Positions 5,005 through 39,221 of a DNA stretch of 64,000 nucleotides are shown here, piece by piece; the stretch's first letter is position 1; each line of letters starts with the position of its first letter. The notes beneath the pieces are model-generated. The model ran no database searches, had not been told where the DNA came from, and was given only the letters and a program-made list of their open reading frames with translations. A program made the position numbers and the translations under genes. The stretch is from NCBI RefSeq assembly GCF_000024985.1, contig NC_013523.1:124001-188000 (forward strand), written 5' to 3'. Source of the stretch: Sphaerobacter thermophilus DSM 20745. GTDB lineage: Bacteria; Chloroflexota; Chloroflexia; Thermomicrobiales; Thermomicrobiaceae.

Positions 5005-5265
5005 TAAAGCCGCCGGGCTGATATGGGGTAAGCCCACTGAAGGGGCTACGATGGCCACTCCCCGGCGAATCCGATCCGGCCTCTCACCGGACGCTGCGTC
5101 CCCAGCCCCTTCAGTGGGCTTCGCTTTGTCAGCCCGGTGGCGTTCGCCCCGGGCACAGGCCACGGCGTGGGGATCCTTGCAGCACCCGGCCGGCTCACTG
5201 CTCTCAGCCGGCTTCAGCCGGCTTTCGTGGTCAGCCCGGCGGCTTCAGCCCCGGGCACGCGCCAC
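5005..5265. repeat. Right half of nested palindromic repeat, with 17-bp core arms
   Basis: After the IS target duplication the interrupted arm continues as GCCGCCGGGCTGA. Core arms AGCCCACTGAAGGGGCT (5031-5047) and its exact complement (5104-5120) enclose a 56-nt loop. The second-level arm returns near 5127-5154 and the outermost 61-bp arm at 5205-5265. Up to the kinase stop at 5329 nothing else is visible. Similar cores occur at 10858, 44952-45042 and 59438-59527. Confidence 0.85.
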
Positions 5266-5328
5266 ACCACGGGGACCCTTCAAATCACCCACCCCGAACA
5301 CCGACCACGCTGCCAGACCCGCCCGGCC

Positions 5329-6492
5329 TCACGGGCCGGCTCCGACGACGCCGCGCTGGATGAGTACCAGCAAGAGGAGCACGATGACGATGGCGGCGGC
5401 CAGTCCCGCCCAGCCGCCGATGGTGCTGGCGACGCGGTCGAACCCCTCGCTGAGGCGTTCGACGCTGCGCATCGCGCTGGCCAGTTCGGCGTCCAGGTCT
5501 TCCAGCCAGCGAGACGGGGCGCGACGGAGTTGCGGCGCTGGGCGGTGGACGACGGGGCGCTGATCGGTGTCCTCGATTGGTGCCAGGGGAAGTGCCGCCT
5601 GCTCGATGGCGCGGGCCATGGCTGCAGCCGAGCGGAACCGCGCGGCCGGGTCGCTGGCCAGCGCGCGGCGCACGACCGCGGCAAGGTCCGGCGGAACGGC
5701 CGGTCCCAGGTCATCGTCCGCGTCGCGCGGCAGGCGGCCGGTCAGCATCTCGAAGAGGACCACCCCGACGGCGTAGAGGTCCGTCTCCGGGCCGACCGTT
5801 TCGCCCGCGCGCTGCTCGGGCGCCATGTACGCGGGGGTGCCCAGCGCCTGATCTCCCCGGAACAGGTAGGGCTCACCCAGGCGGCAGGCGGCGCCGAAGT
5901 CCACGATCTTGGCGGTCGGACCCGTCCCGCCGATCATGATGTTTCCCGGCTTGATGTCGAGCAGGAGGACGCCGCGGCGGTGGATCTCGGCCAGACCGGC
6001 GAGCACCTGCCGGGCGATCGTGGCCGCCTCGTGCGGCGGCAGGGGGCCGCGGCGGTCGAGGACCCGGCGCAGGGTCTGGCCCTCCACCCACTCCATCGCC
6101 ATGAAGGGCCGACCGTCGTGGCGGCCGTGACCGAGCACGCGGACTACGTTGGGGTGGTCGACATTGCCGCCGAGCTGCGCTTCACGTTCGAAGCGGGCCA
6201 CCAGTTCCGGGTCGGCGGCGTGCTCCCGGTTGAGGATCTTCACCGCGACGCGCCGCTCGCCCCGCTCGGTGGCGAGCCATACGGTGCCGAAGCCGCCGCT
6301 GCCCACCACGCGGACTAAGCGGAACCGTCCGGCCAGGATGGATGCCGGTGCCTCTACCACGGCGCGTACGCTCCTCTCCCGCCGTCCGGCCCAAGTATAG
6401 CTGGGACGGTCGAGGAGGATTGTGCGCATCGTGTTCGGGCGACCGGCGACGGCCTGGCGGGGTGACGGCGAGCCGCGCCGGCTCGCCGTCAT
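5329..6492 (-). CDS. Membrane-anchored Ser/Thr protein kinase
   Basis: A 387-residue eukaryotic-type kinase. It has the P-loop GSGGFGTV (near residue 64), the Lys in VAVKIL, catalytic loop LLLDIKPGNI, metal-binding VDFGAA and YMAPEQ. The catalytic loop reads LLD where most kinases have HRD; the Asp, Lys and Asn are kept, so activity is likely. A single C-terminal membrane helix (about residues 360-380) leaves almost nothing outside, so there is no sensor domain. The ATG overlaps the stop of the TadG-like gene by 4 bases (ATGA), implying coupling. An internal ATG at 6429 is a weaker alternative. Confidence 0.88.
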   Translation of the reverse strand: MTASRRGSPSPRQAVAGRPNTMRTILLDRPSYTWAGRRERSVRAVVEAPASILAGRFRLVRVVGSGGFGTVWLATERGERRVAVKILNREHAADPELVARFEREAQLGGNVDHPNVVRVLGHGRHDGRPFMAMEWVEGQTLRRVLDRRGPLPPHEAATIARQVLAGLAEIHRRGVLLLDIKPGNIMIGGTGPTAKIVDFGAACRLGEPYLFRGDQALGTPAYMAPEQRAGETVGPETDLYAVGVVLFEMLTGRLPRDADDDLGPAVPPDLAAVVRRALASDPAARFRSAAAMARAIEQAALPLAPIEDTDQRPVVHRPAPQLRRAPSRWLEDLDAELASAMRSVERLSEGFDRVASTIGGWAGLAAAIVIVLLLLVLIQRGVVGAGP

Positions 6493-8285
6493 TCGATGAG
6501 GAAAACTGCAGGGATGGATGTGTCCACGTACTGCTGGTACTCGAGGCCGAGCCGTGTGCTGCCGCCCGTCTGCATCGAGTTGACGATGATCTGCCCGCGC
6601 AGCACCTTGCCGTTGCTCGCACCGCCCATGGTGAGCTTCGCCGAGGGCAGGTAGACGGTTCCTTCACTCAGCATCGAGGTCGTGCCGTTCCACTGGAACG
6701 TCTCGGTGTTGTCGGGGTGGGCGTACATGAAGACGCCCGGATGGTAGCCAGGGTAGATGCTCGTCGTCGGCGCGGTGAACGCGAAGGCCGCGCTGCCCGA
6801 CGTGTGGAGGTAGCACCCCGGGCCGAAGAAGAGGAAGATATTCCGCCCGCCGATCCAGGTGCTGCCTGAGTTCTCCAGCTTGCACGTGTCCCTCGGGGGA
6901 TTACCGCCGAAGTAGTACTCCCCGCTGGGGAGGTTGAAGTGGGTGCTGCCGCTCGTGAGCAGGCTTGAGCCGTCGTAGAAATACATCTTGACGTAGACAT
7001 CGCCGTTCAGCCTGATTGTCGAGCTTCCCGAGAAACTGAGGTTTGCACCGTTGCGGAACCAGAACTCGTAGTGACCCGGGTTGAAGGTCAGGTGCGAGCT
7101 GCCACTGAAGACCATGCCATGACCCCCATCGAAGATGTAGGTGCCGGGGTTGAGGGTGACGCTGTTGCTGCCGCCGGGAAGGATCCCGCTTCCCGCGCCG
7201 CTGAAGTAGAAGGTGCCGCCGCCGAGCACGTTGCCGTTGGCGCTGCCGCCGATGCTGAGGCGTGCACCGTTGAGGAACGCGTAGTTTCCCCGCTCCATCC
7301 GGAAATCTGGCGTGCTGCCGCCGACGCTGATCCCAGGGCCGCCGTTGAACGTGTAGTTCCCGCCCCGCAGCACGATCGGCCCGTTATTGCCGCCACCGAT
7401 GGAGATCCCGGCTCCGTTGTTGAACCGGTAGTTTCCGTGCGCGAACTCGAGCGTGTTCCCGCTCTGCACGTTCTGGATGGTGAGGCAGTTCCCGCCGCCG
7501 CCGGAGTAGGTGCCCGCCGGGACGGTGTAGATGTTCACACCCCACGGCTGCGGGTACTCCATGCACTGCTGGGGGCTCCCGCCGACGTTCGGTACCGGGT
7601 TGTTCGGGAACGGTGGCATCGTCGGCGGCTGGATCTTGTCCTTGAGCGGGTCCGGCACCTCCGGCGCGTAGGGGTTCGTCCCCATACCGCCTTCAATCCT
7701 GCTGGCCCCCGACTCCCTGAAGCCATCATTCGCGTTCACCTGCTGGTCGGCGATGATCGAGGTCGAGCCGGACGTCTCAATCGTGTAGTTCGACATCACG
7801 CTGCCGCCGGTGACTTCGATCCCGGTGTTGCCGCTGGTCTTGATCCCGCCGCTCGACGGGTTGAGGGCCAGCAGTGCGGCGTCGAAGGGCACCGGCTCCA
7901 GTGACGCCGCTGCGCGCGCACCCACCTTCCAGTCACCTGGATAGACCAGGCCGACGAAGAACTTGGGAACCTCGGCGTTCACGGTGACGCGCACCTGCTT
8001 CATGTCCGGGCTGAAGGTGATCTCCGGGGTGGCGTCGTAGCCGTTCTCCTCGACGTAGTAGGCCGCGATCTGCTCGAGTGTCGCGGTATTGGTCACGCCG
8101 GAGTGGACCGCGTGGGCCACCGCCAGCGCGGCGGCGTCGGCGGCGTTCTGCACGCCCCGGCGCTGGGACAGCAGGTAACCGACATCGACTGCTGCGGCCA
8201 GAAAGGCGATCAGGAGCACCGTGGCGGCGGCGAAGATCACCAGGATCTGCCCTCGGTGTGCGGTGTGTTGGCACGTGGTCGGCAT
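6489..8285 (-). CDS. TadG-like protein with Gly/Ser-rich beta-helix-like repeats
   Basis: About 598 residues. The ATG at 8285 is chosen because GAGGGGGGAG precedes it; the frame stays open to a GTG at 8300. The N-terminus has one membrane helix after HRGQILVIFAAATVLL and then VDVGYLLSQRRGVQNAADAAALA, the TadG/Flp-assembly signature. From about residue 150 the protein is built of roughly 21-residue repeats with themes such as GGNYTFNGGPGISVGG, resembling a right-handed beta-helix. It is probably an exported surface protein anchored by its N-terminus. It follows two TadE-type genes and overlaps a kinase gene. The repeat region is unusual for TadG. Confidence 0.82.
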   Translation of the reverse strand: MPTTCQHTAHRGQILVIFAAATVLLIAFLAAAVDVGYLLSQRRGVQNAADAAALAVAHAVHSGVTNTATLEQIAAYYVEENGYDATPEITFSPDMKQVRVTVNAEVPKFFVGLVYPGDWKVGARAAASLEPVPFDAALLALNPSSGGIKTSGNTGIEVTGGSVMSNYTIETSGSTSIIADQQVNANDGFRESGASRIEGGMGTNPYAPEVPDPLKDKIQPPTMPPFPNNPVPNVGGSPQQCMEYPQPWGVNIYTVPAGTYSGGGGNCLTIQNVQSGNTLEFAHGNYRFNNGAGISIGGGNNGPIVLRGGNYTFNGGPGISVGGSTPDFRMERGNYAFLNGARLSIGGSANGNVLGGGTFYFSGAGSGILPGGSNSVTLNPGTYIFDGGHGMVFSGSSHLTFNPGHYEFWFRNGANLSFSGSSTIRLNGDVYVKMYFYDGSSLLTSGSTHFNLPSGEYYFGGNPPRDTCKLENSGSTWIGGRNIFLFFGPGCYLHTSGSAAFAFTAPTTSIYPGYHPGVFMYAHPDNTETFQWNGTTSMLSEGTVYLPSAKLTMGGASNGKVLRGQIIVNSMQTGGSTRLGLEYQQYVDTSIPAVFLIE

Positions 8286-8300
8286 CGGCTCCCCCCTCAC

Positions 8301-8747
8301 TCAGTAGTGCACGATCATGGTGGAGCTGGCGCGGAGCGTCAGTGTGGGGGCGGGAAGGATGAACCCGACGAGCGGCCGATACGGGTATGACACCACCACC
8401 GTGACCCGGTGCTTGGGTTGGAGGTCGCCGTCCGGCCGGTCGACGGTGACGGACAGTGCATCGGGATTGCTTAGGGTGGTCTTCGTCAGGATGGCCGCCT
8501 TGACTGCGTCCGGGTCAATCGTGTAGGCGGCGATCTCGGCCGGGTCCCTCAGCCCCTGCGACATAGTGCCGTGCACGGATGCGTAGCGTGCTCCCTCTCG
8601 GGCAGCGGAGGTCACCTGATGGTGGGTGAAGAGCAGCCAGCCCATCTCGATGATGCCGAAGATGAAGGTGAAAAAGACCAGGGAGGAGATTGCAAACTCG
8701 ACCATCCCCTGCCCGGCGCGGTGCTGTCGCCTCCTCTGCCACCACAT
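8301..8747 (-). CDS. TadE-like pilus assembly protein
   Basis: A 148-residue TadE-family protein: short basic N-terminus, then GQGMVEFAISSLVFFTFIFGIIEMGWLLF with the conserved Glu of the processed pseudopilin-like segment, and AAREGARYASVHG just after it. The rest is a small extracytoplasmic domain. It starts 2 bases after the previous TadE stop and ends 15 bases before the TadG-like start. No TadA ATPase, TadB/C or secretin is in the window, so the secretion machine must lie elsewhere. Confidence 0.85.
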   Translation of the reverse strand: MWWQRRRQHRAGQGMVEFAISSLVFFTFIFGIIEMGWLLFTHHQVTSAAREGARYASVHGTMSQGLRDPAEIAAYTIDPDAVKAAILTKTTLSNPDALSVTVDRPDGDLQPKHRVTVVVSYPYRPLVGFILPAPTLTLRASSTMIVHY

Positions 8748-19333: not shown

Positions 19334-19369
19334 TGTTAAGGGAAGGTGCGTGTGGGGCGTGGTGTGTGT

Positions 19370-19517
19370 TGCGTCATACGTCACACGTCACACGTCATGC
19401 GTCATGCATCCCCCTCACCCCCAAGCCCCCTCTCGGACGGAGCCCACAAGGGGAGAGGGGGTGATCGCCTTGACCGTGCACGATCTTCCCCCTCTCCCAA
19501 GGTTGGGAGAGGGGGTC
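19370..19517. repeat. Composite repeat: ACGTCACACGTCATGCGTC words plus CTCTCCC hairpin
   Basis: Six words of the CGTCACACGTC / CGTCATGCGTC type are followed by CCCCTCACCCCCAAGCCCC, CTCTCGGACGGAGCCC, and CCCCTCTCCCAAGG against a GGGAGAGGGG arm. The last hairpin (about 19490-19513) sits 20 bases past the YyaL stop and could terminate it. Same family as 12943-13085 and 40097-40250. Confidence 0.7.
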
Positions 19518-19532
19518 AGGGGGTGAGGGCCG

Positions 19533-21590
<2,058 letters not shown>

Positions 21591-22008: not shown

Positions 22009-22287
22009 GGCTCGTCTTTCTCGGCACCACCGGTGGCCGTGCCACCTGGTGGCGCTGCGGGAACCGATTCGGCCAACCGATAGCCAAGGAGCGCAGATTC
22101 CGTGCCGGACTGCGGCGGGGCATGCTGATCCGGCACCGGATTCAGCTCTCGTGGAACGATCCGGCGAATGGCCCCAGCGTCGACGCCTACGCTTCGCTCC
22201 GGCTCAGGTCAGCCGGACCGACGACATGCGTGACGACGCAGCGGGAGACGGCGTGGATATTCGTGCTGGTCGTGCTCGGTTGAGCGT

Positions 22288-23040
22288 CTACGGCGTCATG
22301 GCGGTCTCCTCCGGATGTGCGACGACAATCAGCCGGTGATCGTTGACGAGCGGCGGCCAGCACGAGACGAGCGTCACGCGCTCGTCCTCGGTTGGGCCGA
22401 TGAACGCGCCGGCCGCGAGCCGCTCGGCGAGTGAGGCGCCACGCTCCTTCCGGTAGTGGATCTCCGTCACCCGATAGCGGTGCACCGTGCCGTCCTCGGT
22501 GCGGATCAGGACCGGATCACCGAGCGCGACCTGGTCCAACGTGCCGAAGACCGTACCCTTCCAGTCGCTGTGTCCGGCGATCACGATGTTGCCCGGCTCT
22601 CCCGGACGGGCCGACGTGTCATGGTAGCCTGCCGCGTACTCGGCGACCTCCCACTCCAGGACGGGCTGCCCATCGATGGTGATGACGTGGCTCGTGACCG
22701 GCACGATGCCGACATCGATCGCCGCCGAGGGGATCGACAGATGGGTCGGAGCGGCACGCCGAGCCTCCGGATCCACCGGGCTCGCACCGTCCGCCGTGGC
22801 GGGAAGGTCGGTGCGTGCCCGGTTGGCCGGCTCCGGGTCGGTGCTGCCGGACTGCGACGCGACGGCGCCTGTCACGTCGGCCTCCGGGGTCTGTGTCGCT
22901 CCGGGCGCGGCGGTGGGCTCGACGAGCGTCCAGATCGCCGCTGCCAGGGCGACACATCCGATCCCGAAGAGCGCCCTGCGGAGCAGCGTCCGGGCAAGCG
23001 TGTCGCCGTTGCGTGTCCGTTCCTCAGGTGCCTGCGTCAT
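22288..23040 (-). CDS. Sortase
   Basis: A 250-residue membrane-anchored transpeptidase. A single N-terminal helix (about residues 22-40) is followed by a Pro/Ala/Thr-rich stretch and the sortase domain from about residue 98. The catalytic triad is visible: His in NIVIAGHSDW, Cys in VTLVSCWPP (TLxSC instead of the common TLxTC) and Arg in DHRLIVVA. It lies 132 bases downstream of the LPVTG-ended protein at 23173-24975, its likely substrate. The short linker and single helix resemble class D/E sortases, but the class is not certain. Confidence 0.9.
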   Translation of the reverse strand: MTQAPEERTRNGDTLARTLLRRALFGIGCVALAAAIWTLVEPTAAPGATQTPEADVTGAVASQSGSTDPEPANRARTDLPATADGASPVDPEARRAAPTHLSIPSAAIDVGIVPVTSHVITIDGQPVLEWEVAEYAAGYHDTSARPGEPGNIVIAGHSDWKGTVFGTLDQVALGDPVLIRTEDGTVHRYRVTEIHYRKERGASLAERLAAGAFIGPTEDERVTLVSCWPPLVNDHRLIVVAHPEETAMTP

Positions 23041-23172
23041 GGTTCGTATCCCTCTGCCGTTTCACCGGTCTCCACCGGTCACTGGCCCGCTCACTGTCGT
23101 CTGGAGACGAGTTGAGCGGCGCCGGGTGAGGTCGGGGAAGGTGCGCACGCGCACCTTCCCCACCTGCCGGGG

Positions 23173-24975
23173 TTACCGCGGCTGTCGGGATAGACGCAGC
23201 CCACCAGCGATGCTGAGGAGGCCGAGGAACAGGAGCCACCAACCAGGGTTCATCCCGGAGTTCACCGGCGTCTCCGCAGCCGTCGCCACGACCGGCTGAC
23301 CTGTCACCGGCAGCAGGCTCGGGATAGCGTCGACGTCCGCCTTCGGGGCGGCGTGGGCGATGGGGCTCACCCGACCACGGCCGGTGCTGGGGCCACCCGG
23401 GCCACCGTGATGGCCGGTGCCGGGGCCGACGGTCCCGTCGCCATCCGAGCCGTCGCCGGTGCCGTTGCCGTCACCGTCTCCGGCGCCATCCCCGTTGTCG
23501 CCAGTACCATCGTCGGTACCGTCATCGTCGGAGCCATTCCCAGCGCCGGGGTCGGTGCCGTCGCCCGGCTCATCGTCATCGCCGGTGCCGTTGTCGCCAC
23601 CGTTGTCTCCGTTGCCGGGGTCGTCGCCGTTGTCGTCCCCGTTGCCCGGATCGTCACCATTGTCGTCGCCGTTACCCGGGTCGTCGCCGTTGTCGTCCCC
23701 GTTGCCCGGATCGTCACCATTGTCGTCGCCATTCCCCGGGTCGTCACCGTTGTCATCCCCGTTGCCCGGGTCGTCGCCATTCCCGGGGTCATCCCCGTTA
23801 CCAGGATCATCCCCGTTGCCCGGGTCGTCCGGCGTGACGCACCCGTCCCCCGACTCGGTCGGGAGCAGCCCCAGGTTCAGGCAGACGTCCGCGCCGACAC
23901 CGATGTCGCCAACGCCGGCGTCGATCCCGGCGTCAACGACCAGGTCGAGCAGACCTCCGCCTGGACCCGAGCCGCAGCGGTCATCCTGGGTGCCCAGGAC
24001 GACGGCATCCAGGCACACGTCAGTGTCCAGATCGATGGGCGGTAGCCCGTCGACCAGCCCGATGTTCGTGTCGAGGTCGAGGTCCACGACGGCGCCGATG
24101 AGCCCGCTCTGACCCGAACCTGGCTCGTCGGCACAGTTGTCGGTGCCGTTGACCAGCGCCCCGAGATCGAGGCACAGATCGGCGTCCACATCCGGCTGCT
24201 CCGAGTCGGGACCGAGCGGCAGATCGATATCGAGGCCGACCTGGGCCGTACCATCGAGCAGCCCCGAGCCCGGCTGATCGGTGCAGCTATCGGTGCCGTC
24301 GATCAGCGCTCCAACGTCGAGGCAGATATCGGCGTTCACGCTCGACGAGTTGGGCCCCAGCGGCAGATCGATGCCGATGTTGAGATCGATGTCGCTATCG
24401 AGCAGGCCCGCGTCGGGAGCGTCGGACGGCGTGCAGTCAGCGCTCACCTGAGCCCCGAGCACGTCCACGGTGCCGCACACGTCGATGTCGACGATGGGGC
24501 CCGCCGTCGGGTCGGACAGGTTCGTGCTGAGATCGACGGTCGGCGCGACGGTGATCACGCCGGGCACATCGATCGTCGGCGTCCCATCACCGACGACCTG
24601 ATCGACGACGTCATCGACGATGTCGACCACGTTGTCGACCAGCCCGGTGATGGCGTTCTCGGTGTTCTGGCCAGTCTGGCCGAGAACGCCGTCGAGCGTG
24701 TTGATCGCCATGCCGGTGAGTCCGTTCACGGCGGTGGTGGTCTCAGTGTTCCCGGCGGCGTTCTCCTGCACCAGCGACTCAGTGGTATTCGTGACAACCG
24801 TGACGGTTCCGTCCGTGACGGCGGTAACGGTCTGGTTTACTGCCTCGATGGTCGCGTCCAGGTCCAGTCCCAAGCCTTCCTGAGCCTGCGCGGTTTCGGC
24901 CGTCATGGCGTCCGCGACCAGCAGGCCGAGGACCAGGGCCACGACCATGCCGAGGCCGGCAAAGAACGTTCGCAT
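23173..24975 (-). CDS. Secreted repeat protein with C-terminal LPVTG sorting signal
   Basis: A 600-residue surface protein. It has an N-terminal signal peptide (hydrophobic residues about 5-25, AQA-type end). The middle has four to five units with the pattern DxCLDxGALxxGTDxC, paired cysteines suggesting disulfides. A low-complexity acidic region with NGDDPG units (about 23577-23830) follows. The end has LPVTG (residues 555-559, bases 23299-23313), a 19-residue spacer, a membrane helix WWLLFLGLLSIAGG and RQPR. That is a cell-wall sorting signal, with an unusually long gap between LPVTG and the helix. The sortase gene follows. Confidence 0.85.
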   Translation of the reverse strand: MRTFFAGLGMVVALVLGLLVADAMTAETAQAQEGLGLDLDATIEAVNQTVTAVTDGTVTVVTNTTESLVQENAAGNTETTTAVNGLTGMAINTLDGVLGQTGQNTENAITGLVDNVVDIVDDVVDQVVGDGTPTIDVPGVITVAPTVDLSTNLSDPTAGPIVDIDVCGTVDVLGAQVSADCTPSDAPDAGLLDSDIDLNIGIDLPLGPNSSSVNADICLDVGALIDGTDSCTDQPGSGLLDGTAQVGLDIDLPLGPDSEQPDVDADLCLDLGALVNGTDNCADEPGSGQSGLIGAVVDLDLDTNIGLVDGLPPIDLDTDVCLDAVVLGTQDDRCGSGPGGGLLDLVVDAGIDAGVGDIGVGADVCLNLGLLPTESGDGCVTPDDPGNGDDPGNGDDPGNGDDPGNGDDNGDDPGNGDDNGDDPGNGDDNGDDPGNGDDNGDDPGNGDDNGDDPGNGDNGGDNGTGDDDEPGDGTDPGAGNGSDDDGTDDGTGDNGDGAGDGDGNGTGDGSDGDGTVGPGTGHHGGPGGPSTGRGRVSPIAHAAPKADVDAIPSLLPVTGQPVVATAAETPVNSGMNPGWWLLFLGLLSIAGGLRLSRQPR

Positions 24976-25097
24976 GTCGGTGTACTCCTCGTATCCAGAT
25001 CTCCCTGGCTGTGTGGCCTGGGCGATCTGTCGGCATGTTCCGATGCAGTGGCTGCATGGCGAATCACACGGCGCGATTCACCACGCGGTGCACCGGT

Positions 25098-26735
25098 CTA
25101 GCCGGGAGGAGTCGGGATGGTTTGCAGGATGCCGCTGGGGATGCCGCTCCGAACCCACTGTTGGGCTTTGTGACCCGCAATGAGGCTCAGTATGGTCAAC
25201 AGGAGGATGGCCGCCAGCGGGCCCTGGAAGTCACCGGCGGACGCGCTGCTGTTGCTGGACGCCGACGAGCTCACCGGTGACGTAGGCGCCGGCGCAGGAG
25301 CCGTCGGGCCATTCGCCGGCAGCGGCGTGGATGGCACCGGCGACGGGGGCGCGCCGCGCAGGATGCGGTCGAGCTGCTGCGGACCGACCGGATTGGCCGC
25401 CGGATGCGCGCGCATCACCTCGAAGGGGACTACGACCAGCGACTGGCCCGTCGTGGTCGGCGACGCCGCGCCCAGGTCGGCTGGATTCGCCGTGACCAAG
25501 TCGGCTGGATTCGCCGTGCTCGGGCGGGTCGTGACCGGCGCCGGCGTCGCGCCACCGGTCGGCAGTGCTGGCGTTCGCGGGCTTGGGGTGGGCTGCGTGA
25601 TGGTGTCGCCCGGCACCGGCACGATCGGCGCGGTGCGATGTGGCGGTGTCAGACTCGGTTGCACAGGGTTTCCTGGCTGAGCCGGAATGACCGGCCACGC
25701 GGGCGCACCCGGCGCGGCGGGATCGCCCGGCACGCCCGGTATTGGAGTACCCGGACCGCCCGGCACCGAGGGAATCGGCTCCTCCGGCGTCGGCACCGGC
25801 GCCTCCGGTGTGCCCGGATTGTCGGGATCGGGCAGCGGCGCGCCCGGGTTACCCGGCGCGGGCGTCGTCGACCCGTTCGGCGGCGTCAGCGCATCGGTTA
25901 CCGGGTTGAGAATCGGATCAGTCAAGACCGGCACCGTGTTCCCCAGGATGGGTTCGGTAATCGGGGCGACCACGTCGTTCACCACCGTATTCACGGTGTC
26001 GGCGGTGCCACCCAGGATCGGGGCCAGCACCGGCTCTGACGGCAGGATCTGCTGAACCGGATCCAGCACCGGTTGGGTCGCCGGCAGCGTGTTCCCAACC
26101 GTGTCGATGAGGTCGGAGGGAACGGTGGTCAACGTCTCATCGACCAGCGGGACGGTCGTATCGACGATGGTGCCGGTCATGTCCACGAGCGGCGCAACCG
26201 GCTCGGTGACGGCGTTGACGAGGCTGGCCGCCGACTGCGCCGTTTGCTCGACACTGGTCGTGGTTTGCTGGAGAAGGTTCGGAACGAGTGTCTCGGGTGA
26301 CTGCTGGAGCGACGTGACAGCCGCGTCGACGATGTCGCCTACGGCCTGCGTCGTTCCTTCCACGGTATTGACGGTCGCGTCAACCACCGACGGCACGGTC
26401 GAGGGGTTGGTCAGGTTCCCGACGGTCTGGTTCACGCCGGTAGTCGTTGTGCCGACCGTTGTGTCGACGGCATCCGTCACCGGCGCCGCCGCCGGGATCA
26501 CCGTCGACACAATGTCGGTGACCGCGCCCGTGGTAGTCTCGACCACGTCGGTGAGGGTGTTGGTGAGGTCGCCGAGCAGCCCGCTGGCCTCCGCGTCCTC
26601 ACTGAAAGCGAAGGCGGCTGTGAGAGCGATGAGTATGGTGACGATGCGAACTGTTAGTCTCACAGTATCAGTATCGAATCCTGACGATACGGTATTGATG
26701 GGGCGATCATACGCTCTCCGACTCGTGGTTGACAT
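25098..26735 (-). CDS. Large secreted Thr/Val/Pro-rich repeat protein with C-terminal membrane helix
   Basis: Up to 545 residues from ATG 26735; a GTG at 26663 would also leave the signal sequence (RIVTILIALTAAFAFSEDAEA) intact. Residues about 50-290 consist of irregular Thr/Val/Asp-rich repeats with themes such as VxDTVxxTVxxxxxP. A Pro/Gly-rich spacer (about 290-430) and a Ser/Ala/Pro segment follow. The C-terminus has one helix (PLAAILLLTILSLIAG) and about 20 more residues. No LPxTG is present; PLPANG is the nearest string. It shares design and orientation with the LPVTG protein downstream, so it is probably another envelope protein of the same system. Confidence 0.7.
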   Translation of the reverse strand: MSTTSRRAYDRPINTVSSGFDTDTVRLTVRIVTILIALTAAFAFSEDAEASGLLGDLTNTLTDVVETTTGAVTDIVSTVIPAAAPVTDAVDTTVGTTTTGVNQTVGNLTNPSTVPSVVDATVNTVEGTTQAVGDIVDAAVTSLQQSPETLVPNLLQQTTTSVEQTAQSAASLVNAVTEPVAPLVDMTGTIVDTTVPLVDETLTTVPSDLIDTVGNTLPATQPVLDPVQQILPSEPVLAPILGGTADTVNTVVNDVVAPITEPILGNTVPVLTDPILNPVTDALTPPNGSTTPAPGNPGAPLPDPDNPGTPEAPVPTPEEPIPSVPGGPGTPIPGVPGDPAAPGAPAWPVIPAQPGNPVQPSLTPPHRTAPIVPVPGDTITQPTPSPRTPALPTGGATPAPVTTRPSTANPADLVTANPADLGAASPTTTGQSLVVVPFEVMRAHPAANPVGPQQLDRILRGAPPSPVPSTPLPANGPTAPAPAPTSPVSSSASSNSSASAGDFQGPLAAILLLTILSLIAGHKAQQWVRSGIPSGILQTIPTPPG

Positions 26736-26895
26736 AGCAAAGATGGGCTATCGGCACAGGACGAAAGCACCAGTACGCCCCGTGCCGAAGACACGCCATC
26801 GTGATGCGCAATGTCTTGGACGACGCGGTGGGATCCCCGTACACTGAGCCGAGCTGGAGCGGTGGCACTCCGGTGCGGCCGGAGAGGAGGGTGCG

Positions 26896-28122: not shown

Positions 28123-28828
28123 AGCCTCCTGCGTGTCCCGGCTTCCGTGTTCGGTGTTGTGTCCCTCATCTCCAAGGGCACGGAGCAGGGGACACGCAGC
28201 ACACAAAACCCCATCGAACTATCAAGTCCACCTCATCCCGCCGTGCGACGTCGCAGCGTTGGCAAGCCTCTGACTGAGGTGCCTCGTGCCACTTCGCCCG
28301 AACGGGCGGATACGACTACAACGCAACATCGAAACATGGAACGAAAGATGCGATACTCGTTCCATGCGAGTTACACTGATTCGGCTAGGCGCTTGTGTCC
28401 CGGTCATCCTGAGTGGAGCCGGAGGCGGCGACCAGCCGCCCCTGGCGCAGCGAAGGATTTCTCCGCCGCGTGGCCGATCCGAGGCGAGATCCTTCGCTCC
28501 GCCGCCCGCCGCTCCGCACCAGCCGGCTCCGCTCAGGATGACAGCAGCGCGGGAGCGGGTGGCGGGAGACGAGATTCATTCGCACCTGATCGTGGTGGCG
28601 TGCGAAGCCGCACGGGGCTGAGCCAGGGAGTGGCGCTGGCAGCGGATCGGTCATGCGGTTCGCTGTCGGTCGGGAGAGGAGGTGTGGCCGGAGACCAGCC
28701 GTGGGGGAGCGGCCGACGGACCAGGCGTCTCTTGTCGCCGTGCCGTCGTGCCGTTGGTCAGGTCTTCAGGTCGCAGCGCCCCGCCGTGTGGCGGGGGCTG
28801 CTGCCAGGTGAAGGGGAAGGATCCCACG
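28123..28828. other. 706-base leader/intergenic region with several palindromes
   Basis: No gene recognised. It contains a perfect 10-bp inverted repeat CATGGAACGA / TCGTTCCATG (28335-28344 and 28357-28366), a GTCATCCTGAG repeat (listed separately) and a strong hairpin CCCCGCC-GTGT-GGCGGGG at 28779-28796, 32 bases before the subtilase ATG. The last may act as an attenuator or mRNA stabiliser of the subtilase transcript. This role is inference. Confidence 0.45.
28403..28542. repeat. GTCATCCTGAG-type inverted repeat
   Basis: GTCATCCTGAGTGGAGCCGG (28403-28422) faces its near-exact complement at 28523-28542, with GCGAAGGATTTC and GAGATCCTTCGC as inner arms. This is the widespread bacterial intergenic hairpin family (TCATCCTGAGCG...CGCTCAGGATGA). 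Other copies here: 44816-44878, 52257-52373 and 61442-61519. Confidence 0.75.
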
Positions 28829-37807: not shown

Positions 37808-37835
37808 GCTCGTCATGACACAAGGACGGACAGTG

Positions 37836-39221
37836 ATGGACCCGCGACTCGCGCTGGCGGTCATGGCCGGGAAGGCAAGCGCGTTCCTCATTCGCCGGCT
37901 CGGCCGGGGCGGCGGGACCGCCGCACCCGGTGTGATCGCCAGCATGATCGACCCGGCGGTGCTCGACAAACTGGCGCGACAGGTGGACGGGGGCTGCGTC
38001 GTGGTGGCGGGCACGAACGGCAAGACCACCACGTCGCGCATGCTGGCCGGCATCCTGACGCAGTCCGGGCGACGGGTGATCCACAACCGCTCCGGCTCGA
38101 ACCTGGTGCGCGGCATCACCGCCGCCTTTGCCGAGCAGTCGGCCCTTACCGGACGACCGCGCGGCGACGTGGCCGTGATCGAGTCCGACGAGGCGGCCTT
38201 CCCCGAGGTGGTGCGCCGCACCCGCCCGCGCCTGGTGCTCTTGCTGAACCTCTTCCGCGACCAACTGGACCGCTACGGCGAGCTGGATACCATCGCCACC
38301 CGGTGGGGCGAGACGCTGCGGGCACTGCCCGCGGAAGCGACCGTCGTCGTGAATGCCGACGACCCGGCCCTGGCGACGCTCACCGAAGGGCTCACGGCGA
38401 CGCGCCGCACCTTTGGCATGACCGACGGCCGCTACCAGCTCGAAGACCTGCCGCACGCGGCCGACGCCGCCGTTTGCCGCCGCTGCGGCGCGCCACTCCG
38501 CTACGAGCGGCTCTTCCTCTCGCACCTGGGCGACTACACCTGCACGGCTTGCGGGTACCAGCGTCCCGCGCTCGACGTCGCGGCGCGCGACGTGCAGCTC
38601 TGCGGGCTGGAGGGGCTCACGCTCACGCTCCACACCGCGGACGGTCCGATCGCGGTCCGCGCCGGGGTGCCCGGGCTGTACAACGCGTACAACGCCCTGG
38701 CCGCCGCAGCCGCCGCGCTCACCCTCGGCGTTCGTCCCGAGGCGGTCACCGAGGGGCTGGAGCGCTTCCGCTCCGCCTTCGGGCGGATCGAGCGGGTCAC
38801 CTACCGCGGCCGGAAGCTGGTGATCGTGCTGGTCAAGAACCCGGTCGGCTTCAACGAGGTACTGCGCATGCTGGAGATGGGCGGCGCGGCCCCGACGCTG
38901 ATCCTGATCAACGACCTGGACGCCGACGGGCGCGACGTCTCCTGGCTGTGGGATGTCGACGCCGAGCGGCTGCTGGACGTGCCCGTGCCGCTCTACACCG
39001 GAGGTATCCGCGGGGACGACATGGCGCTGCGCCTCAAGTACGCCGGGATCCCCGAGGAGCGGCTGGTGCCGCTGGGCGACCTGCCGGACGCGCTCGACAC
39101 CTTCGTGGACGACCTCCCGGCCGACGGCACCGGCTTCATCCTGCCGACCTACACCGCCATGCTGCGCCTGCGCGAGCTCCTTGCGGCACGTGGCGTGGTG
39201 CAGGCGTTCTGGGAGGAGTGA
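37836..39221 (+). CDS. murT: Lipid II isoglutaminyl synthase subunit MurT
   Basis: About 461 residues from ATG 37836, preceded by AAGGACGG; an ATG at 37815 is an alternative. The Mur-ligase core has VVVAGTNGKTTTSRML (P-loop) and NLFRDQLDRYGE. A zinc ribbon typical of MurT is inserted (CRRCGAPL and CTACGYQR). The C-terminus is the DUF1727 domain (VLVKNPVGFNEVLRML). MurT activates the D-Glu carboxylate of lipid II so that GatD can supply ammonia, giving D-isoglutamine in peptidoglycan. gatD follows after 143 bases of repeat DNA. Confidence 0.95.
   Translation: MDPRLALAVMAGKASAFLIRRLGRGGGTAAPGVIASMIDPAVLDKLARQVDGGCVVVAGTNGKTTTSRMLAGILTQSGRRVIHNRSGSNLVRGITAAFAEQSALTGRPRGDVAVIESDEAAFPEVVRRTRPRLVLLLNLFRDQLDRYGELDTIATRWGETLRALPAEATVVVNADDPALATLTEGLTATRRTFGMTDGRYQLEDLPHAADAAVCRRCGAPLRYERLFLSHLGDYTCTACGYQRPALDVAARDVQLCGLEGLTLTLHTADGPIAVRAGVPGLYNAYNALAAAAAALTLGVRPEAVTEGLERFRSAFGRIERVTYRGRKLVIVLVKNPVGFNEVLRMLEMGGAAPTLILINDLDADGRDVSWLWDVDAERLLDVPVPLYTGGIRGDDMALRLKYAGIPEERLVPLGDLPDALDTFVDDLPADGTGFILPTYTAMLRLRELLAARGVVQAFWEE

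Follow-up and report, generated by a model that had tools for sequence, protein, structure and literature searches.

A probable cell-wall anchoring cassette, specific to Sphaerobacter thermophilus, pairs a sortase with an acidic LPVTG protein

Do a sortase gene and the adjoining gene for an LPVTG-ended secreted protein in Sphaerobacter thermophilus, a bacterium from hot sludge, form a pair that fixes the protein covalently to the cell wall, and is such a pair out of place in the Chloroflexota? The question comes from a first-pass annotation of 64,000 nucleotides of the genome (positions 124,001 to 188,000 of contig NC_013523.1; hereafter the window), which described a sortase beside an LPxTG-type protein with an unusually long gap between motif and helix and regarded wall anchoring in this lineage as surprising. 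Both open reading frames were found as described. We conclude that the sortase system is real and, apart from its unusual cargo, fairly ordinary.

The sortase gene (window 22288–23040, minus strand) encodes 250 residues, with a membrane helix near the N terminus at about residues 13–39 and a domain that matches the Pfam Sortase family (PF04203) with E = 1.1e-22 and 80.5 bits, where the cut-off is 26.6. Its predicted structure, modelled without the N-terminal linker and with pLDDT of about 70–94 across the domain, matched solved sortases in a Foldseek search (E = 2.8e-9) and has the sortase β-barrel fold. His157 (22570–22572), Cys227 (22360–22362, in the motif TLVSC) and Arg236 (22333–22335), the catalytic residues, are invariant in an alignment of nine sequences. 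Class E gave the best score among the class models, at 61.1 bits against an NCBIfam cut-off of 160, followed by class F at 49.4 bits (NCBIfam cut-off 166) and class C at 40 bits, far under its cut-off of 160; class E enzymes are also the closest by sequence among solved structures. The tyrosine of the β3/β4 loop that has a described role in class E enzymes (PMC5148588) is absent. The residue aligned with it is His140 (GYHDTSAR, against GHYANTAR in the class E structure 5go6), which is consistent with LPxTG, not LAxTG, as the motif used. By these sequence measures the window sortase fits no named class.

Directly upstream on the same strand is the gene for the likely substrate, a secreted protein of 600 residues (23173–24975). 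Its start resembles a signal peptide by eye and is followed by a region rich in threonine, valine and aspartate. Five repeats follow (23836–24495), each with a pair of cysteines 13–14 residues apart (residues 167/181, 218/231, 268/281, 321/334 and 365/379), and then an acidic stalk of about 136 residues composed of Asp, Gly, Asn and Pro (23422–23829; 35% Asp, 34% Gly, net charge about −48). The protein contains eight Lys or Arg in all 600 residues, and residue 545 is its lone lysine. Its C terminus reads LPVTG-QPVVATAAETPVNSGMNPG-WWLLFLGLLSIAGGL-RLSRQPR, in which the motif (residues 555–559; 23299–23313) is separated by a 19-residue spacer from a 15-residue helix and a basic end (23176–23241). 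We found no match for the cargo above the Pfam or NCBIfam cut-offs, and a known cargo domain such as chaplin or pilin was rejected on this ground. Searches with the N-terminal 385 residues and with a repeat profile detected no relative in 400 Chloroflexota genomes, nor was one found in the 60 nearest relatives or among plasmids, and the five-repeat region had no relative among solved structures.

Is the sorting signal genuine? All four elements (LPxTG, hydrophobic helix, basic C-terminal end and, judged by eye, N-terminal signal peptide) are present. The arrangement of LPxTG, helix and basic end occurred in only two of 523 open reading frames of at least 80 residues in 121 kb of the S. thermophilus genome, and never in 52,300 shuffles that preserved the composition of these C termini. 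One of the two is the window protein; the other is an LPQTG protein at 638 kb on contig 1 (C1). The genome-wide census of LPxTG ends, a check that the annotation had proposed, is partial because it used codon-limited DNA patterns. The window tail scored 11.2 bits with the curated LPXTG model TIGR01167, below the cut-off of 15.9, and did not match PF00746. A relative with a typical-looking tail (L122) also falls under the TIGR01167 cut-off, so the curated models are weak in this lineage. The long gap noted earlier is real: by a 15-residue-window measure it is 21 residues here and 7–16 in seven comparable signals from the same order. The window tail thus has a longer spacer than all seven, and its helix is shorter than those of its relatives.

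On the minus strand, the LPVTG gene is preceded by a third gene (25098–26735), the first of the block, so that the order is 25098–26735, 23173–24975 and 22288–23040, the genes being separated by 122 and 132 bases; the three may be co-transcribed. The third gene encodes a secreted Pro/Thr/Val-rich protein of 545 residues that has a C-terminal helix but lacks LPxTG, and it had no family match above cut-off in Pfam or NCBIfam. The idea that it duplicates the LPVTG protein was rejected, as the two have no significant similarity; it is possible that it is a partner. Between the substrate and sortase genes lies a perfect 13-bp inverted repeat (23134–23161; folding z-score −4.8) that would form a very stable transcript hairpin without a T-run. 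A pattern search found no intrinsic terminator there, only this hairpin, which could reduce sortase expression relative to that of the substrate.

These three genes are present or absent as a unit. In one congener (G001), the left flank (to about window 22254) joins the right flank (from about 26800), with CGTG common at the joint, and in a second (G002) the matches to the same flanks lie 145 bases apart. The missing segment of about 4.5 kb (22255–26799, with ends approximate to a few bases) therefore contains these three genes and no others, and of the three species sampled only S. thermophilus has it; the pair of sortase and LPVTG protein was found in one genome only. Separately, dispersed intergenic-looking repeats at 28403–28582 and 19359–19542 lie beside the block and have dozens of matches in both congeners.

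Where the block came from was addressed with a tree of 71 sortases, the phylogeny that had been proposed as a check. The window sortase falls on a long branch (0.6) inside a 20-row clade (support 100/98) whose other members in the family lie mostly near a protein-kinase gene and often near lgt, and which includes a copy on contig 2 of the same genome. The window sortase is thus related, though divergently, to the sortase resident in the family, and is no obvious import from Gram-positive phyla. A scan of named genomes with the window sortase, which reaches close relatives only, found nine loci, and those that could be identified are Chloroflexota, again with no sign of import from another phylum. 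It is rather unlikely that the ancestor of the genus already had the block and that both congeners lost it. Grouping with the family's own kinase- and lgt-neighboured sortases fits ancestry, as does a GC content that matches the genome (0.68 for the block, 0.69 for the window); the long branch speaks against it, as does a GC3 slightly below that of most neighbours (0.80–0.85). Ancestry would also need several losses, because the cargo is missing from 60 of 60 nearest relatives and from 400 genomes of the phylum. Gain of the block in S. thermophilus is more parsimonious than such repeated loss.

The presence of a sortase system in this organism is not in itself unexpected. Of 101 related genomes, 98 have a PF04203 sortase, as do all 62 of high quality, and the order has other genomes in which an LPNTG, LPATG, MPNTG or MPTTG protein adjoins a sortase. 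The genome of strain S 6022T (3,993,764 bp, two replicons) was published with a description of the species as Gram-positive, with A3β murein cross-linked via β-alanine and a wall 'unusually rich in protein' (PMC3035262). Covalent anchoring is therefore expected rather than paradoxical, and S. thermophilus is not the ambiguous case that a debated envelope type would imply. The murT gene that the first-pass annotation placed in the window is there (37815–39221; MurT_C E = 7.5e-30). A 2006 review credited Chloroflexus with a single sortase-like protein of unknown role (PMC1586193). Our search of the open-access literature, with subscription papers outside its reach, found no paper on Sphaerobacter sortases and, on the phylum as a whole, nothing beyond short or sceptical comments. 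Sortases are thus barely treated in the literature found, yet they are present in nearly all related genomes.

Taken together, these observations make it probable that the block is a dedicated, species-specific sortase and substrate cassette through which the LPVTG protein becomes covalently attached to the wall. This reading draws on the sortase family, predicted fold and catalytic residues; on a tail arrangement unmatched in 52,300 shuffles, carried by a protein with a signal peptide and a wall-spanning-like stalk; on adjacent genes with the same direction that come and go as a unit; on LPxTG proteins that directly adjoin sortases elsewhere in the order; and on the published protein-rich, Gram-positive wall (PMC3035262). 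The protein would be exported by the Sec route, and its C-terminal helix and basic end would retain it in the membrane. The neighbouring sortase would then cut LPVTG between Thr and Gly through a thioester on Cys227 and join the protein to an amino group in the cross-bridge of the peptidoglycan. Given the reported murein, the natural candidate acceptor, and the most likely one, is the β-alanine bridge. The acidic stalk would reach across the wall so that the head with its cysteine repeats is exposed, and the product of the third gene may be a partner held in the membrane.

Counted against anchoring are a tail that scores under the curated LPXTG models, with its long spacer and short helix, a sortase on a long branch, which could reflect either relaxed constraint or a new substrate, and the restriction of the pair to a single genome. 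The same spacer, helix, branch and sub-threshold score would fit a protein anchored by its helix only, with a vestigial or accidental LPVTG spoiled by the tail's proportions and a sortase that acts on other substrates or is decaying. We consider this improbable: the catalytic residues are intact, the frames are open and intact, the sortase adjoins the LPVTG gene, the order of motif, helix and basic end is absent from shuffles, and L122 fails the same model despite its typical-looking tail. That the sortase polymerizes the LPVTG protein into a pilus-like fibre, with the 545-residue protein as a minor part, is very improbable: a sortase and two secreted neighbours in one block recall the gene number of pilus islands and C-class sortases are among the fold matches, but the LPVTG protein has a single lysine, neither Pfam nor NCBIfam finds a pilin domain and the sortase is far from the class C cut-off.

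Anchoring to the wall, our preferred reading, can be extended to a bolder one that we offer as a speculation, possible but doubtful: that a recently gained cassette builds a wall-anchored, acidic, disulfide-bonded coat on β-alanine-bridged murein, its sortase belonging to a Chloroflexota class not yet described, one that can use β-alanine and tolerates a long spacer. Such a coat would help to explain the protein-rich wall reported for S. thermophilus, and a β-alanine acceptor, if real, would be of value for sortase chemistry at 55 °C. More broadly, covalent wall display becomes testable in a cultured member of the Chloroflexota, a phylum whose envelope has been disputed.

The survey also brought out other sortases of the family. 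In S. thermophilus and eight further genomes, a sortase gene adjoins a fliD-like gene inside a flagellar cluster, and seven of these nine sortases also adjoin flgC. The S. thermophilus copy (L020:8071–8946, C1:626 kb) lies between the two, as do those at L113, L114, L117, L118, L123 and L129; L121 and L127 have the fliD side only. Neither S. thermophilus nor Thermomicrobium roseum is motile according to the published description, even though T. roseum has a complete set of flagellar genes (PMC3035262). A literature search with narrow terms found no paper on sortases in flagellar clusters, and these are possibly more novel than the window cassette. A second sortase, close to flgB/flgG or motAB, is paired with a CSLREA/choice-of-anchor-Q β-helix protein. 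In S. thermophilus the β-helix protein and its class F-like sortase are at L021:8432–10945 and 7578–8417 (C1:652 kb), and other such loci are L112:8252–11578, L116, L122 and L128. The β-helix protein ends in LPNTGGR in S. thermophilus and LPNTGGQ in G001 with no membrane helix after the motif, an odd position at the extreme C terminus that is kept in two species; its relatives in other genera end in LPNTG or LPATG, a helix and Arg. The LPQTG protein at C1:638 kb (L191:5379–6011; congener L192:3377–4033) lies in the flagellar cluster, is conserved in the congener and has 210 residues with an extracytoplasmic RskA_C domain, ending in LPQTG, a helix and RRVRRQRR. The resident sortase, whose clade includes the window sortase, usually lies near a Ser/Thr-kinase-like gene and often near lgt; no LPxTG neighbour was seen at its loci (L019:7076–7870 and 5192–6970; L052–L066).

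How does the window cassette compare with known systems? It shares with LPXTG anchoring in Gram-positive bacteria (PF04203 enzymes with TIGR01167/PF00746 substrates) the His/Cys/Arg sortase domain and a secreted substrate with LPxTG, helix, basic end and a wall-spanning-like low-complexity stalk, but it differs in the 19-residue spacer, the 15-residue helix, scores under both curated models, a cargo without relatives and a probable β-alanine acceptor. Class E enzymes of Actinobacteria (Streptomyces coelicolor SrtE1 and T. fusca SrtE) are the most similar among class models (61 bits) and solved structures, yet the window sortase is far under their cut-off of 160, has His140 at the tyrosine position and adjoins an LPVTG rather than an LAxTG substrate. 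The same-family CSLREA/choice-of-anchor-Q pairs (L116, L122 and L128) likewise place an LPxTG-helix-Arg protein directly upstream of a sortase, but that sortase belongs to another, class F-like clade (113 bits for the own-genome copy at L021), the cargo is unrelated and the loci lie near flagellar genes. Finally, the long chaplins of actinomycetes and CwpA and CwpB of Actinoplanes (PMC13251363) resemble the window protein in being of a sortase-anchored type with paired cysteines, disordered stretches and no clear domain homologues, whereas the window protein has no chaplin domain match and is very acidic rather than hydrophobic.
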